DNA from: Methanolobus vulcani
GTDB taxonomy: Archaea; Halobacteriota; Methanosarcinia; Methanosarcinales; Methanosarcinaceae
Direction: 5' to 3'
Assembly: GCF_900100715.1 (NCBI RefSeq)
Contig: NZ_FNCA01000001.1
Location: forward strand, 372,001 to 436,000
Length of the DNA: 64,000 bases
Each line of letters begins with the position of its first letter. Position 1 is the stretch's first letter. The notes beneath the pieces were generated by a model. That model ran no database searches, was not told the origin of the DNA, and saw only the letters and a program-made list of their open reading frames with translations. Below, one piece after another: positions 34,983-41,932 of this stretch. Made by a program: the position numbers and the translations under genes.

Positions 34983-35474
34983 TTAATCGATCTTATCGAA
35001 CCTGAATGCAGGTGCACCGCAGACAGGACAGTTATCTTCAGGTTTACCTTCATGTGTATGCCCGCAGACACTGCAAACGTAATAATCCGTTTCTTCGTTG
35101 CTGCCAAGTTCCTTAAGTGCTTTTTCATAAAGAGCTGCATGGGTTTTTTCCACTTCATTTGCAACCTTGAAACTCCAGAGAGCCTTGTCATTACCTTCTT
35201 TTTCTGCTTCTTCGATGAAGGCAGGGTACATGCTCTCAAACTCATAAGTTTCACCATTGATAGCCTCTTTCAGGTTATCCTCGGTTGAACCGACGCCATC
35301 CATGCGTTTAAGGTGATTCAGTGCATGGATCGTTTCAGCAGCTGCTGCAGCCCTGAAAAGTTTAGCTACCTGAGTATATCCTTCTGAATCTGCTTTTGCT
35401 GCAAAGGCCAAGTATGTCCTGTTCGCCATTGATTCACCGGTGAATGCTGCTTTTAGGTTATCTTTGGAACTCAT
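34983..35474 (-). CDS. Rubrerythrin
   Basis: Rubrerythrin is a cytoplasmic non-heme di-iron peroxidase that reduces H2O2 in anaerobes. The four-helix ferritin-like part begins NLKAAFTGESMANRTYLAFA and supplies Glu/His ligands (ExxH in AAAAETIHALNHL, and EVEKTHAALY). The C-terminal rubredoxin-like knuckles are CSVCGHTHEG and CPVCGAPAF. I take the ATG at 35474, which has AGGAG upstream. The frame is open 15 codons further. It belongs to the oxidative-stress part of the window. Confidence 0.96.
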   Translation of the reverse strand: MSSKDNLKAAFTGESMANRTYLAFAAKADSEGYTQVAKLFRAAAAAETIHALNHLKRMDGVGSTEDNLKEAINGETYEFESMYPAFIEEAEKEGNDKALWSFKVANEVEKTHAALYEKALKELGSNEETDYYVCSVCGHTHEGKPEDNCPVCGAPAFRFDKID

Positions 35475-35577
35475 AATTATCTCCTTTAATCTTTTCAGCC
35501 TGATTACGTGTTCCTGCATATATCACATTAACGCTGCAAGAATAATAAAAATGAAAGAATATGAATGAGGAGAGATA

Positions 35578-36516
35578 TCACTCCACAATAACCTCATTCT
35601 CCTCTGCCCATGCAGGCTGGTCTATTGCAAAGAACTCAAGATCTGTATCCCCTGTATTTTCAGTACTTTGCACTGCATTGGCAGGTATTACAACAAGGTC
35701 ACCTGCTTTTACATCAAAAGGAACATTATCAATATAAAGCACTCCTTCCCCCGAGATCACATAATGGGTTTCCGGGTTCTTCATAATGTGGGCCTCAATG
35801 GAAGAACCGGATTTAATGATCACATGTGCAATACTGTAATCAATTCCAAGGTCCCGGCCAACTTTTGCAGGATGAAGCAGATTTCCAAGGGAAACGGTAT
35901 CAAAGCGTGTGAAATATTCTATGTCATCAAGACTATTGGTATAAACATAGTTGTTAACATAGAACCCGGATGTAACCAGATATTCCTGCTCACCTATTGA
36001 AGCTTTCTTTACGAAGGTATATTTCATTGAAGGAACTGTTTCTCCTGGTTTTGTCCACTGATAAGTTACCCAGCCCTCACCTTCATTACTTGTGGCGGTA
36101 TCTATAAAGTACTGGCCAAGAGGAGCACCGTCGTAATCTGTCATACCTGAAGCATCCTCACCTTCACTACTTACGTTTGGAGCGTAGACTGTTCGGATAC
36201 CATCTATGGTCCATATACTGAGATAAGTATCATCATGGAACCATTTGCTGTCTGCCTGCCTGAATTCATCAAAGGCATCTGTACCCTGTTCATCCATAAG
36301 GGCAATTGCATCATTGACAAGTGACTCTGTGCTGATCATTGCAGACTGCAGACTGTCCTGTCCCGAAGTGTTAATATCCGTTCCCTGTTCTCCGACTGAT
36401 GAAGCGTTCCCATTCTGGTCGTTTATACCTGAACCATCAGTTTGTACACAACCAGCGACCATAAGTAAAAGGATAGATAAAGAAATTGCAAATATTATTT
36501 TTCTTATAGAAATCAT
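35578..36516 (-). CDS. Lipoprotein with Cache-like sensor domain fused to a cupin
   Basis: This is a predicted surface lipoprotein: a hydrophobic signal is followed by a VAGC lipobox near residue 23. Residues about 60-205 look like a single Cache-type domain (DDTYLSIWTIDGIRTVYAPN, YTFVKKASIGEQEYLVTSGFYV), found in extracellular ligand sensors. Residues about 225-300 are a cupin barrel (HIMKNPETHYVISGEGVLYI, KAGDLVVIPANAVQS). There is no membrane output domain. I start at the ATG at 36516, preceded by AGGTG. The ligand is unknown. The cupin suggests small-molecule binding or turnover outside the cell. Confidence 0.8.
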   Translation of the reverse strand: MISIRKIIFAISLSILLLMVAGCVQTDGSGINDQNGNASSVGEQGTDINTSGQDSLQSAMISTESLVNDAIALMDEQGTDAFDEFRQADSKWFHDDTYLSIWTIDGIRTVYAPNVSSEGEDASGMTDYDGAPLGQYFIDTATSNEGEGWVTYQWTKPGETVPSMKYTFVKKASIGEQEYLVTSGFYVNNYVYTNSLDDIEYFTRFDTVSLGNLLHPAKVGRDLGIDYSIAHVIIKSGSSIEAHIMKNPETHYVISGEGVLYIDNVPFDVKAGDLVVIPANAVQSTENTGDTDLEFFAIDQPAWAEENEVIVE

Positions 36517-36525
36517 TTTTAGCAC

Positions 36526-37109: not shown

Positions 37110-37355
37110 TTACGCGAAGAAATATGATTTGATAGTCCACATAACTCCGATAAGTACCATAAAAATTCCAGTCAGCCCTACATTAAAAAAGATCGAAGGC
37201 AATGTATGAGGACTTCCGGTTGGATTACCTGCTGCATCACATGCACTTTCAGTAAGATTGATTCCGGCTATGTTGCATATTGACAGGACACTTGCTACAA
37301 GAAAAATAATAACAAGTCCGCCTGCTACCATATACATTGGCGTTTTTAAATTCAT
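37110..37355 (-). CDS. Two-helix membrane protein of unknown function
   Basis: The protein has two hydrophobic helices, MYMVAGGLVIIFLVASVLSI and FFNVGLTGIFMVLIGVMWTI, separated by a loop containing CDAAGNPTGSP. I prefer the ATG at 37355 (81 residues). A TATA-like GTTATATCG (37378-37386) lies about 25 bases before it, which fits a leaderless transcript. The upstream ATG at 37376 would add seven residues. Confidence 0.7.
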   Translation of the reverse strand: MNLKTPMYMVAGGLVIIFLVASVLSICNIAGINLTESACDAAGNPTGSPHTLPSIFFNVGLTGIFMVLIGVMWTIKSYFFA

Positions 37356-37470
37356 CTGTCCCGTAATGGCATTCAAACGATATAACTTTTTACAAATTCA
37401 TCCGTAAGTCGATCGATCTCAGCTAACACATTAATTCCAAATCAAAAACGAAGAAAAAGATGCATCGTTT

Positions 37471-37589
37471 GTGGGGGTGTATGCTGTTATGATCCTTATC
37501 TCACCTTCCTATTTATTCAAGCAGGAAGGCAGACCACCTGTTCTGGCTAATGCCTATTGAGATGGTCTGCCTGGTGAGACCACCCCCAC
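37471..37589 (-). ncRNA. Candidate structured RNA with compact three-way junction
   Basis: Four perfectly paired helices nest without gaps. P1 is 37471-37479 with 37581-37589 (GTGGGGGTG). P2 is 37499-37505 with 37573-37579. P3 is 37506-37510 with 37523-37527. P4 is 37528-37536 with 37563-37571. P2, P3 and P4 abut as a three-way junction. On the - strand a TATA-like TTATATTA (37626-37619) predicts a transcript start near 37596, and T-runs follow at 37465-37443. The + strand lacks both signals, so I favour the - strand. No known RNA family is recognised. Confidence 0.55.
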
Positions 37590-37745
37590 GTCTGATAGAA
37601 TCATTTCAGTAAACAATGTAATATAAGCTTTGTGAAATTGACCGGGATAAACAAGGTATTCAGGAAATTATCCAGTTAATTGTAGATATTTTATAACAAA
37701 TAATCATTATATACATTAAAAACATATAATAACGCGAGGTAAATA

Positions 37746-37853
37746 ATGAATAACAATGCAATCATCAGCGCCAAGAAGGTAGGACTGATGTTCTTCCTTT
37801 ATATCCTTATGCTGATGGCAATTGTCGTAATAGCAGGACTTGTTAATACCTGA
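37746..37853 (+). CDS. 35-residue single-helix membrane peptide
   Basis: ATG at 37746 follows GAGGT with a five-base gap, a good ribosome-binding site. The 35 residues have a polar head (MNNNAIISAKK) and one helix (GLMFFLYILMLMAIVVIAGL). The peptide resembles the 30-residue one at 17245. Methanosarcinales carry many such unannotated peptides, and the function is unknown. Confidence 0.65.
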   Translation: MNNNAIISAKKVGLMFFLYILMLMAIVVIAGLVNT

Positions 37854-37937
37854 TAGATTACGACATCACCAAACTAAAGTATACACACCAATTTACTGGT
37901 GCTTATTACATTATTTCTATATTTGCATTATTTATGT

Positions 37938-38187
37938 TCAGGCAGTTGGAACTACGTAAGGGATTTCCTCATAAGGTTGAATAACCACAAATCCTTCTCC
38001 CTTAAAAGCCATCTGTATGCTTTCGCCACTCGATCTTCCGACTAATGTCTTCAGGGAAATATCGGTCTTTATATCAGGTTGCAGATTTCCTGACCATGCA
38101 ACTGTTGCATTTGGATCTGTAAATACCGGCCTGTCAGAAGACACCATAAGTGTGAGCGGATCGTAGTGTGTAGTAATAGAAACTCAA
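37938..38187 (-). pseudogene. Truncated copy of the AIM24-like gene
   Basis: The last about 80 codons of the AIM24-like gene at 41237 are repeated here: [18 protein letters not shown], [11 protein letters not shown] and [17 protein letters not shown] are shared. Similarity continues upstream of the ATG at 38147 ([15 protein letters not shown]), then meets an in-frame TGA near 38190. The first about 150 residues are missing, and AT-rich foreign-looking DNA starts where the homology ends. Many silent differences show an old duplication, so this is a decayed paralogue and not a fresh target duplication. Confidence 0.75.
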
Positions 38188-38290: not shown

Positions 38291-39250
38291 TTGATAAGGA
38301 AAAATAGAAATGTTTTTATTCAAGTAATAAGTCAAACTGGTAAAGATTTTTATGTGACAAACATGCAATGCCAAACGCCATTTATATTTGACCTTGATTC
38401 TGATTCGTCTGATGTTGATTACTCTAAAGCCCTTTCGATTACTAGATATGTGACAAATTATCCATTTGACGTAGATGAAATTAATAACAAGATGAGTGAT
38501 AAAAAAATCAAAATTAGTGATGATTTTGGTTGTTTGAATATAAAGAAAAATTCCGATTCCGTTCACACATTGTTTGTAAAAACTGGTTATAAATCATTAC
38601 TAGGACTTAACTATGAATCAGATTCCGTTTATTTAGAAAAATACAAGGTAAGCAACGTGGTAGTTGCAACAATGCATATTGACCATTTTCCTGATGAAGA
38701 TAATAATTTAAATCTGCTTGTTTTTGGTGGAGGTCAAATCTCACAAGATATGTGGGTTAATTATTATAAAAAAACACTAGGGATACACAATTTTAATATT
38801 GTTAAGTTCAATGAATCACAAATAAGAGAAATGTGTTTCAAAAAATATAGTGATGTAATATATGAAATGATATTTGACCCTGCATCTGTGGATAAATTTG
38901 GAAAAGTTGACATTGCTCAATATAAAACAAATAAAAGTAAAATAGATATAGATGCAGAAAATATCAAAGAAATAGTTGACAATGAAGAGATAAAAATAAT
39001 CAAATTTAAATCAGAATATATTTCTACATGCAAGTATTTAGACAAAAGTTATCCCATAAAATTCACTATAAACACAAGCGGAAAAATGAAACTAGACTTC
39101 CCTTCACTTTCTTTTACCAATGTGGAGAATGCATATGATGTAGAAAATTTATTTTACTCATTTGCTCGGAAAGTATACAATGAAATAATATCTGATGAAT
39201 TATATGAATCAGTTGAACAAAAACAACAGACTTTATTTGAATTTATGTGA
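38291..39250 (+). CDS. Cassette protein A, unknown function
   Basis: This soluble protein of about 319 residues has no family I recognise. The composition is rich in Asp, Lys, Asn and Ile, and the DNA is visibly AT-richer than its neighbours, which suggests transfer. It has no signal, membrane helix or obvious catalytic motif. It reads like an alpha/beta protein with segments such as NLLVFGGGQISQDMWVNYY near residue 142, and it ends with a possible interaction tail, QKQQTLFEFM. The first usable start is a TTG at 38291, and an ATG at 38363 is an alternative. Its stop overlaps the ATG of the next gene, so the two are coupled. Confidence 0.7.
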   Translation: MIRKNRNVFIQVISQTGKDFYVTNMQCQTPFIFDLDSDSSDVDYSKALSITRYVTNYPFDVDEINNKMSDKKIKISDDFGCLNIKKNSDSVHTLFVKTGYKSLLGLNYESDSVYLEKYKVSNVVVATMHIDHFPDEDNNLNLLVFGGGQISQDMWVNYYKKTLGIHNFNIVKFNESQIREMCFKKYSDVIYEMIFDPASVDKFGKVDIAQYKTNKSKIDIDAENIKEIVDNEEIKIIKFKSEYISTCKYLDKSYPIKFTINTSGKMKLDFPSLSFTNVENAYDVENLFYSFARKVYNEIISDELYESVEQKQQTLFEFM

Positions 39251-40638
39251 TGAATATGGTTCAAGTAGCTACAAGAGATATTTTTCAAAAGCTAACCGAA
39301 ATGGCATTCAATGACGATACAGTATCAAAAAACCTATCTGGTATTGATGGTTTTGTAAATAACAATTCTAATGACGCTACTGTTCTAAAAGAGATACTAG
39401 ACTCTATGCTTGAATGTGGAAAAACAAATGTAGAATCATACATCAGATTTTACAACTACTCAATGAAACACTCTTTGTTTTGTTTGAACCATTTGTTTTT
39501 AAAATCATCTATTGTTCTTTTACACGATTTCCAGAAAACTAATAAATTAGATACCAACACAACTCAAATAACATTGTTATCAAAAATAATAGCTACTATT
39601 TTAAAATATGAGATTTGTGATTATATTGATATTACTGACTCATTTGAAACTATTTACTTTGGTAAAGATGTACGTTTTCCAGTATCTTTTTCCGATATTA
39701 AAAAATACGAACTAGAGGTACTATGCTTGCTCCGAAGTAAATATACACAGTATATAATTGATAGTGACCAAGTACTTGATACACCTGAATTGATACGTTT
39801 TATAGGAAAATTAAATAAAATACACAATCTATTGGCATTGAAAAAATATACTTCTCAATTAGACGATATAGTATATTCTGATAAATCAAAAGAAAATTTA
39901 TTCAAAACTGACGATATAAGTCCTAATGACTACGATAAAGCTGTTTATGATAATTATGACATTCTGCTTTTCCCCATGATAAACGATGATATTAGATTAA
40001 AAAACAATAAAATATCTTTTCTCAATGAAGGTTTTGGAAATATCGAATATGGAACTTTCTCTATTTCATCAGAAGATAATATTCATTTTAAACAAACTTT
40101 TTCTCTCGAACATAGTGATGAATTTGAAGATTACTTATCAAATGAAACAAAAAACAAAATACTATCTATAGATGATTCAGTGAATATGCAATTTGTTTTC
40201 GATTTTTCTAAATTTGGAAATGATTATAAATTTATTTTTTCTAAGAAAGCAGGCAAGGTCAAAGAAATGATGAACAACAATGAACAAAATAATGGTATTA
40301 ACGTCACTTTCAATGGCAATCCATCTTTTGAAAATTCTCCTCTCATGATTGGGAATAATCAAAAAATGAAATTTAATATAGTACCATTAAAAGATATGTA
40401 TGAAAATTTGGCAAACGAGCTTGATAAAACTTCAATGAACGATAACGAAAAGTCATCATTACAAGATGATATAAATGATACCATAAAAGAACTTAAATCT
40501 GAAAATATAAATGTATCTAAAGTAAAAGAATATACAAATAAAATCAAGACCACTATTACAGGTTTGTCAGGATGTGCGCATCTATTAACTCATGTTGAAA
40601 AGATACAATCATTTTTGTCATCGATAGGGGGTAATTGA
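39250..40638 (+). CDS. Cassette protein B, unknown function
   Basis: This 462-residue soluble protein is of no known family. It starts at the ATG at 39250, overlapping the stop of cassette gene A by one base (TGATG). A GTG at 39247 is also in frame. The N-terminal half is helical, the middle (about 220-350) mixes beta and acidic segments, and residues about 385-460 form a likely helical hairpin (NDNEKSSLQDDINDTIKELKS, VKEYTNKIKTTITG). This kind of C-terminal helical bundle occurs in several uncharacterised mobile or defence proteins, but no catalytic motif is visible. Confidence 0.72.
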   Translation: MNMVQVATRDIFQKLTEMAFNDDTVSKNLSGIDGFVNNNSNDATVLKEILDSMLECGKTNVESYIRFYNYSMKHSLFCLNHLFLKSSIVLLHDFQKTNKLDTNTTQITLLSKIIATILKYEICDYIDITDSFETIYFGKDVRFPVSFSDIKKYELEVLCLLRSKYTQYIIDSDQVLDTPELIRFIGKLNKIHNLLALKKYTSQLDDIVYSDKSKENLFKTDDISPNDYDKAVYDNYDILLFPMINDDIRLKNNKISFLNEGFGNIEYGTFSISSEDNIHFKQTFSLEHSDEFEDYLSNETKNKILSIDDSVNMQFVFDFSKFGNDYKFIFSKKAGKVKEMMNNNEQNNGINVTFNGNPSFENSPLMIGNNQKMKFNIVPLKDMYENLANELDKTSMNDNEKSSLQDDINDTIKELKSENINVSKVKEYTNKIKTTITGLSGCAHLLTHVEKIQSFLSSIGGN

Positions 40639-41184: not shown

Positions 41185-41230
41185 TAAAAAGCACTAAAAA
41201 GCACTAAAAAGAATGCTGTTAAAGCATTCT
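41185..41230 (-). terminator. Terminator of the AIM24-like gene
   Basis: AGAATGCT at 41210-41217 and AGCATTCT at 41223-41230 form an 8-bp stem with a five-base loop. On the - strand it is followed by two CTTTTTAGTG tracts, fitting termination seven bases after the AIM24-like stop. The tracts are a short tandem repeat of AAAAAGCACT on the + strand. Confidence 0.6.
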
Positions 41231-41236
41231 CAAGTA

Positions 41237-41932
41237 TTATGCTGTAGGTGTTACGTAAGGTATTTCCTCGTAAGGTTGTATCACGACAAAGCCTTCACCC
41301 TTGAATGCCATTTGAATACTTTCTCCGCTTGAACGACCTACAAAAGTCTTCAGGGAAATATCTGTTTTAATATCAGGATTCAGGTTTCCAGACCATGCAA
41401 CAGTTGCGTTAGGGTCAGTGTAAACTGGTCGGTCATTTGTGACTTTTAGGGTAAGGGGGTCAAAAAATGTGGTAATAGCAACCATACCGGTTCCTTCAAG
41501 TTTCACATTGAAAAGTCCGCCAGCCATCATACCAGCTACCTTTTTCATCATTTTTATGTCCCAGTTAATGCTTTCTTCAAAGGCCAGAAGGTCATTTCCA
41601 TTGACATAGATTGACTCATTTTTGAGATTGAGTACGGATATTTTCTTGCCACTATCAGCAAGGTAAACTTTTCCTGCGCCCTCAGCTTTTGTAAGAGAAA
41701 CACCTTCACCGGTAACTGCTTTTTTCATCATCTTTCCAAGGCCATGTTCCATCACACCTTCTCTTGTGAATTTAACGTCACCAAGATATGCAACCATTGA
41801 GCCTCTTTTGATCCATACACGACCATTCAGGTTCACCTCAAGCATGCGGTCCCTTTCCAGTTCAAACTTGCCCTGGCCAAGGTCTTTCTGACCTGTATTT
41901 TTTACAAACTCATCTAAAGAGTATTTTGAAAT
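41237..41932 (-). CDS. AIM24 / TIGR00266-family protein with apparent AUU start
   Basis: This is an AIM24-like beta-sandwich protein, a widespread family of unknown role. It has [14 protein letters not shown], the pair [14 protein letters not shown], and [20 protein letters not shown] near the end. The first in-frame ATG (41845) misses about 29 conserved residues: the frame upstream reads [25 protein letters not shown], the expected N-terminus. No ATG, GTG or TTG precedes it before a stop. GGAGG lies seven bases before an ATT at 41930-41932, so initiation at AUU is my inference. Loss of the start by mutation is the alternative. Confidence 0.8.

Follow-up and report, generated by a model that had tools for sequence, protein, structure and literature searches.

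A predicted free-standing small RNA with a compact three-way junction in Methanolobus vulcani and its relatives

To our knowledge, few archaeal RNAs beyond rRNA, tRNA, SRP RNA, RNase P RNA, and the guide RNAs have a structure that is supported by covariation. Among the small RNAs (sRNAs) of methanogens, sRNA162 of Methanosarcina mazei acts on mRNAs both in cis and in trans (PMC3510493). The dRNA-seq survey of Methanolobus psychrophilus lists 195 intergenic sRNAs, nine of them cold-induced with a “cold box”, and places the BRE and TATA boxes ~19–22 nt from the transcription start site (TSS) (PMC5378194). The RNA described here is encoded in a 64-kb stretch of the Methanolobus vulcani genome, referred to as the window. 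Like sRNA162 and other methanoarchaeal sRNAs, it is, by prediction, a free-standing intergenic RNA gene of a related methanogen. It differs from the M. mazei sRNAs in that its covariance-model matches are confined to Methanolobus and one other genus of the family, a difference that concerns distribution and not the folds, which were not compared. With the sRNAs of M. psychrophilus it shares the genus, the intergenic position, and the BRE and TATA boxes (PMC5378194). The nine cold-box sRNAs, however, occupy several loci in one genome, whereas the present RNA is single-copy, and the two are set apart on the basis of that description. The archaeal H/ACA and C/D guides are also small, stable RNAs, and an ACA directly follows the basal helix in some copies of the present RNA.

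The RNA core occupies 37464–37596 on the minus strand of the window and folds into a compact three-way junction (Table 1). It matches the covariance model with 139.5 bits (E 5e-33) and comprises four helices, P1 (9–10 bp), P2 (7 bp), P3 (12 bp), and P4 (5 bp). In the letters of the window, P1 is formed by GTGGGGGTG (37471–37479) and CACCCCCAC (37581–37589) over 9 bp, P2 by TCTCACC (37499–37505) and GGTGAGA (37573–37579) over 7 bp, and P4 by TTCCT (37506–37510) and AGGAA (37523–37527) over 5 bp, which one G-U pair can extend. P3 pairs GGCAGACCA (37528–37536) with TGGTCTGCC (37563–37571) in 9 perfect base pairs, and the covariance model extends it to 12 pairs. The original prediction, made from the M. 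vulcani sequence, had described helices of 9, 7, 5, and 9 perfect base pairs and gapless junction joins at 37505/37506 and 37527/37528; all of these helices are present where they had been placed, and both joins are real in the sequence.

Table 1. Features of the RNA locus in the M. vulcani window.
Feature	Coordinates	Strand	Evidence or remark
A-rich BRE-like stretch (TTTCACAAAGC) ahead of the TATA box, conserved	37627..37637	-	alignments; BRE role putative
TATA box TTATAT	37621..37626	-	TATA-like box at 29–31 nt in 11/11 sequences compared
RNA core, P1–P4 and short flanks, AUCAG (5′ side) to GAU (3′ side)	37464..37596	-	covariance-model match and compensatory changes
P1, 5′ strand (GUGGGGGUG)	37581..37589	-	folding and compensatory analysis
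P2, 5′ strand (UCUCACC)	37573..37579	-	folding and compensatory analysis
P3, 5′ strand	37560..37571	-	double-sided changes in 9/12 pairs
Apical part of P3, differing among copies in both sequence and length; mostly missing in L034	37540..37559	-	alignment
P3, 3′ strand	37528..37539	-	compensatory analysis
P4, 5′ strand	37522..37527	-	folding and compensatory analysis
P4 loop CUUGAAUAAA, consensus CUYGAAYAMA, proposed contact site	37512..37521	-	mean information 1.91 bits per column
P4, 3′ strand	37506..37511	-	folding and compensatory analysis
P2, 3′ strand (GGUGAGA)	37499..37505	-	folding and compensatory analysis; re-paired ACCGAC/GUCGGU in the other genus
J2/1, 19-nt single strand; 3′ half (UAACARCAUA) conserved, proposed second contact site	37480..37498	-	information per column
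P1, 3′ strand (CACCCCCAC)	37471..37479	-	folding and compensatory analysis; compensatory length change in the other genus
U-rich tract (UUUUUCUUCGUUUUU), probable site of transcription termination	37444..37458	-	U-runs in 11/12 intact copies
TATA box of the next gene downstream, for a small membrane protein	37380..37385	-	~25–30 nt before ATG (37355); conserved, and kept in G023

Covariation was scored for 35 pairs in two alignments, a plain MAFFT one with 11 sequences and a model-fitted one with 13. In the model-fitted alignment, 92.9% of the cells are paired and double-sided compensatory changes occur in 22 of the 35 pairs, a count reached by none of 500 shuffles. Because this alignment is biased toward the structure, the plain alignment is the stricter reference, and here both sides already change in 14/35 pairs. 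The covariation score of the model-fitted alignment is 0.414, as compared with 0.219 ± 0.017 for shuffles and 0.07–0.15 for slid partners. Compensatory change across species had been named in advance as the decisive check, and it came out in favor of the RNA.

The main carrier of the covariation is P3. P1 is nearly invariant across the Methanolobus copies; its support therefore consists mainly of sequence conservation and one compensatory length change in the copy from the other genus (G070), where one G/C pair is gone from both strands together. In the same copy, P2 is rebuilt with a different sequence. Across the alignment there are 37 G-U pairs versus 9 A-C mismatches, an excess that identifies the minus strand of the window as the RNA. 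By this comparative evidence, the predicted fold is maintained by selection via compensatory change. No conserved reading frame was found among the copies, whose cores measure 120–138 nt; a coding function was rejected because the length shifts are not multiples of three.

The minus strand of 37430–37640 folds with a predicted energy of −72 kcal/mol, as compared with −45.7 ± 4.7 for 200 dinucleotide shuffles (z −5.6), none of which is as stable. The plus strand is also stable (z −4.9), as expected from near-perfect helices, so the strand is not decided by folding alone. The minus-strand core by itself reaches −59.3 kcal/mol and lies below all 912 window tiles of 140 nt (minimum −47.8), a rough comparison since the tiles were placed without regard to features. 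For the 12 intact sequences, the RNAalifold energy is −47.3 versus −4.8 ± 2.3 for column shuffles. Elsewhere in the window, tiles of 140 nt around 9281 (+), 20201 (+), 34901 (−), 25241 (−), and 21181 (−) have a fold z below −5, based on only 12 shuffles each.

The TTATAT box (37626–37621, minus strand) begins 30 nt ahead of the A in AUCAG, and a TATA box lies 29–31 nt upstream of AUCAG in each of the 11 sequences of the first comparison. On the basis of the TATA-to-TSS spacing in M. psychrophilus (PMC5378194), the true start of the RNA may lie a few bases ahead of AUCAG. Beyond the 3′ end are two runs of five U (37458–37454 and 37448–37444), and runs of 4–5 U follow P1 within ~20 nt of the core end in 11/12 intact copies. 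Both a TATA-like box ahead of the minus-strand 5′ end and U-runs past the 3′ end had been part of the original prediction. As far as can be read from the sequence, the RNA has its own BRE/TATA promoter, the BRE role being putative, and it probably ends at the U-tract to give a predicted transcript of ~145–150 nt.

No known family had been recognized in the original prediction, and a search of Rfam 15 agrees. Over the whole window, the sole family above threshold is a distant tRNA; at E ≤ 10, the region 37300–37800 returns just three weak, unrelated chance matches, and the RNA region of 11 homologues returns none. Rfam families in general are founded on conserved structure and covariation, the same type of evidence as presented here for the M. 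vulcani RNA. Searches of the main texts of open-licence papers turned up methanogen sRNA surveys but no account of this RNA. An H/ACA guide was considered and rejected, as the ACA is not conserved (it is lost in L037, L039, L040, and L041) and P1 and P2 join without a two-sided guide pocket. A C/D box guide was likewise rejected: box C (TGATGA) is found in no copy and CTGA near the 3′ end in only one. With no Rfam match, no conserved guide boxes, and no description in that literature, the RNA is, by its predicted structure, a new family of a known broad kind, that of the free-standing archaeal small RNAs.

Homologues were collected by blastn of 150 related genomes, which gave clear matches in several Methanolobus genomes. 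A first covariance model from 11 sequences added the divergent G070 copy and a decayed copy in G015, and a second model was made from all 13 sequences. The RNA is present in 12/27 Methanolobus genomes and in one genome of another genus of the same family, with one copy each; smaller, more sensitive searches within the genus left the carrier list unchanged. Run against the family, the class, and a phylum sample, the covariance model returned only the same 13 genomes, under strict filters that could miss distant copies. There is no covariance-model match in G026, which we take to be M. psychrophilus, and no convincing copy emerged when 10 rubrerythrin loci of non-carriers were searched without filters. 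A degenerate DNA pattern run against 85,000 genomes recovered four Methanolobus-type copies and 12 others, about the chance expectation and without convincing covariance-model support, while IMG/VR gave one match, also without covariance-model support.

In the rpoB tree, the Methanolobus carriers fall in one clade. G023, the sister of G005, has lost the RNA. Its locus lacks everything between a point ahead of the TATA box and a point beyond the U-run, while both flanks align, including the TATA box of the downstream gene; this is nearly a natural single-gene deletion. The G015 copy has decayed (fold z 0.4), and its sisters G002, G004, and G009 have no copy. The tree fits vertical descent with losses, and the G070 copy is either ancient or transferred. 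Because it is deleted or decayed in some species, the RNA is dispensable, and it is nonetheless kept over long times.

The genes downstream of the RNA vary among carriers. The next gene encodes an 88-aa membrane protein in G000, G005, G010, G020, and G001, a 208-aa protein with a CVNCH motif in G017, G025, and G015, rubrerythrin in G012, and a putative YggS-like protein (named from its sequence) in G070. In G019 and G021, a histidine kinase and a tRNA gene, respectively, are convergent with the RNA. The ~208-aa proteins (F30 family; L070 and L071) are small Methanolobus proteins that probably have a membrane anchor and carry a haem-c-like CVNCH motif. In G070 (L078, 8479–9173), an SRP RNA gene lies divergently ~250 nt upstream of the RNA, with a tRNA gene beyond it. 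At 34983–36525 (−) of the window, rubrerythrin adjoins a 315-aa lipoprotein joining Cache and cupin domains, and both genes are near the RNA in several species.

On the other side, a 35-codon hydrophobic ORF at 37746–37853 (+) (MNNNAIISAKKVGLMFFLYILMLMAIVVIAGLVNT) is probably a real microprotein gene; its upstream region is conserved, and it lies beside the RNA of several carriers and is kept in the RNA-less G023. Two overlapping genes of no known family follow at 38291–39250 and 39247–40638 (+). The latter has a match to PDC-M14B, a candidate anti-phage defence family (PADLOC, E 2e-7), and the former a weak one to a type II restriction enzyme (E 0.0026); together they are possibly a small defence module, to go by these matches. 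They are flanked by a direct repeat of 259 nt (37925–38183 and 41224–41482, 73% identical) that holds the 3′ end of an AIM24-family gene; the gene is full-length at one flank and reduced to a 69-codon remnant at the opposite one. In the related species G005, other genes occupy the corresponding position, and the site may be an insertion hot spot.

These surroundings bear on several explanations other than a free-standing gene. A 5′ leader, either riboswitch or attenuator, of the membrane-protein gene would account for the same 88-aa protein being the next same-strand gene in several species, but a constant downstream partner is not found: there are at least five different neighbours, two of them convergent. 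Moreover, the membrane-protein gene has its own TATA box ~25–30 nt before its ATG, retained together with the gene in G023 although the RNA is gone, and the RNA itself is closed by U-runs. A leader is thus very improbable, and the original view that this is a free RNA and no riboswitch leader stands. An antitoxin RNA of a type I toxin–antitoxin pair, with the 35-aa hydrophobic ORF as its partner, is scarcely credible. A tiny, conserved, hydrophobic ORF is indeed divergently upstream in many carriers, but it persists in G023, where the RNA is lost, and is not found next to the RNA in G012, G019, G021, and G070. Equally remote is a DNA element, such as a mobile-element end, a recombination site, or a small non-autonomous element, whose hairpin would matter as DNA. 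P1 could then be a terminal inverted repeat, and the stable hairpins on both strands and the clean absence in G023 would fit. Against it, every carrier has one copy, neither multiple copies nor target-site duplications were seen, the promoter is at a fixed distance, the rpoB tree fits descent with losses, and the excess of G-U over A-C places selection on the RNA of one strand. That the structure arose by chance in non-coding DNA has a negligible probability and is deemed already refuted. A few other window tiles fold with comparably low z in the 12-shuffle survey, but compensatory covariation at a level that 500 shuffles did not reach, in 13 homologues found by structure and sequence, speaks against chance. 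With its own promoter and end signals and its changing neighbours, the RNA is almost certainly a real free-standing gene, to judge from comparative evidence.

In the proposed arrangement, P1 and P2 would be stacked end to end, the 19-nt J2/1 forming a loop on their 3′ side, and P2 would meet P3 and P4 in a tight three-way junction. The P1, P2, and P3 scaffold would thereby expose the P4 loop and the 3′ half of J2/1 to a partner, such that the CUYGAAYAMA and UAACARCAUA strands may pair with an mRNA, as is preferred, or bind a protein. The P4 loop, the most conserved long unpaired stretch, and the J2/1 3′ half carry 1.91 and 1.68 bits per column, respectively; the P3 tip has 0.81 and the J2/1 5′ half 0.95. 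Conservation of the former two while the P3 tip varies suggests a trans-acting RNA that presents these strands, and trans action is further suggested by the exclusion of cis roles. An mRNA partner is slightly favored over a protein because of the precedent of sRNA162 (PMC3510493). When duplexes were sought with the start regions of neighbouring genes, no target family recurred. A pseudoknot in which GCU and AGC would pair the P4 loop with J2/1 was dropped, since by eye some sequences fit it and others do not.

The conserved loops may instead bind protein and not mRNA, making the RNA a structural or decoy component of an RNP, in the manner of 6S RNA or CsrB-like sponges. The long, rigid, and stable fold, a P4 loop as conserved as the helices, and a core promoter upstream of which the alignments show no conserved operator would suit such a role. 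However, there is no conserved box C/D or ACA motif, and the patchy, dispensable distribution disfavors a core RNP; this explanation is possible but on the whole doubtful. Somewhat less likely again is a rigid junction in which the P4 loop and J2/1 form a protein-binding or catalytic site (RNP, decoy, or ribozyme), unlike known archaeal sRNAs. A base-pairing trans regulator is favored at about even chances or slightly better. The reading as a whole, namely an expressed, free-standing non-coding RNA gene of a new family that would act in trans via its P4 loop and J2/1, is considered reasonably probable.

The locus is a previously uncatalogued RNA gene of restricted lineage, present in one Methanolobus clade and, beyond that genus, in a single species of the family. 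The RNA is compact and single-copy, it occurs in cultured Methanolobus species including M. bombayensis, and the states of presence, decay, and clean deletion all occur naturally among close relatives. This combination makes it a practical entry point to lineage-specific structured RNAs in methanogens.
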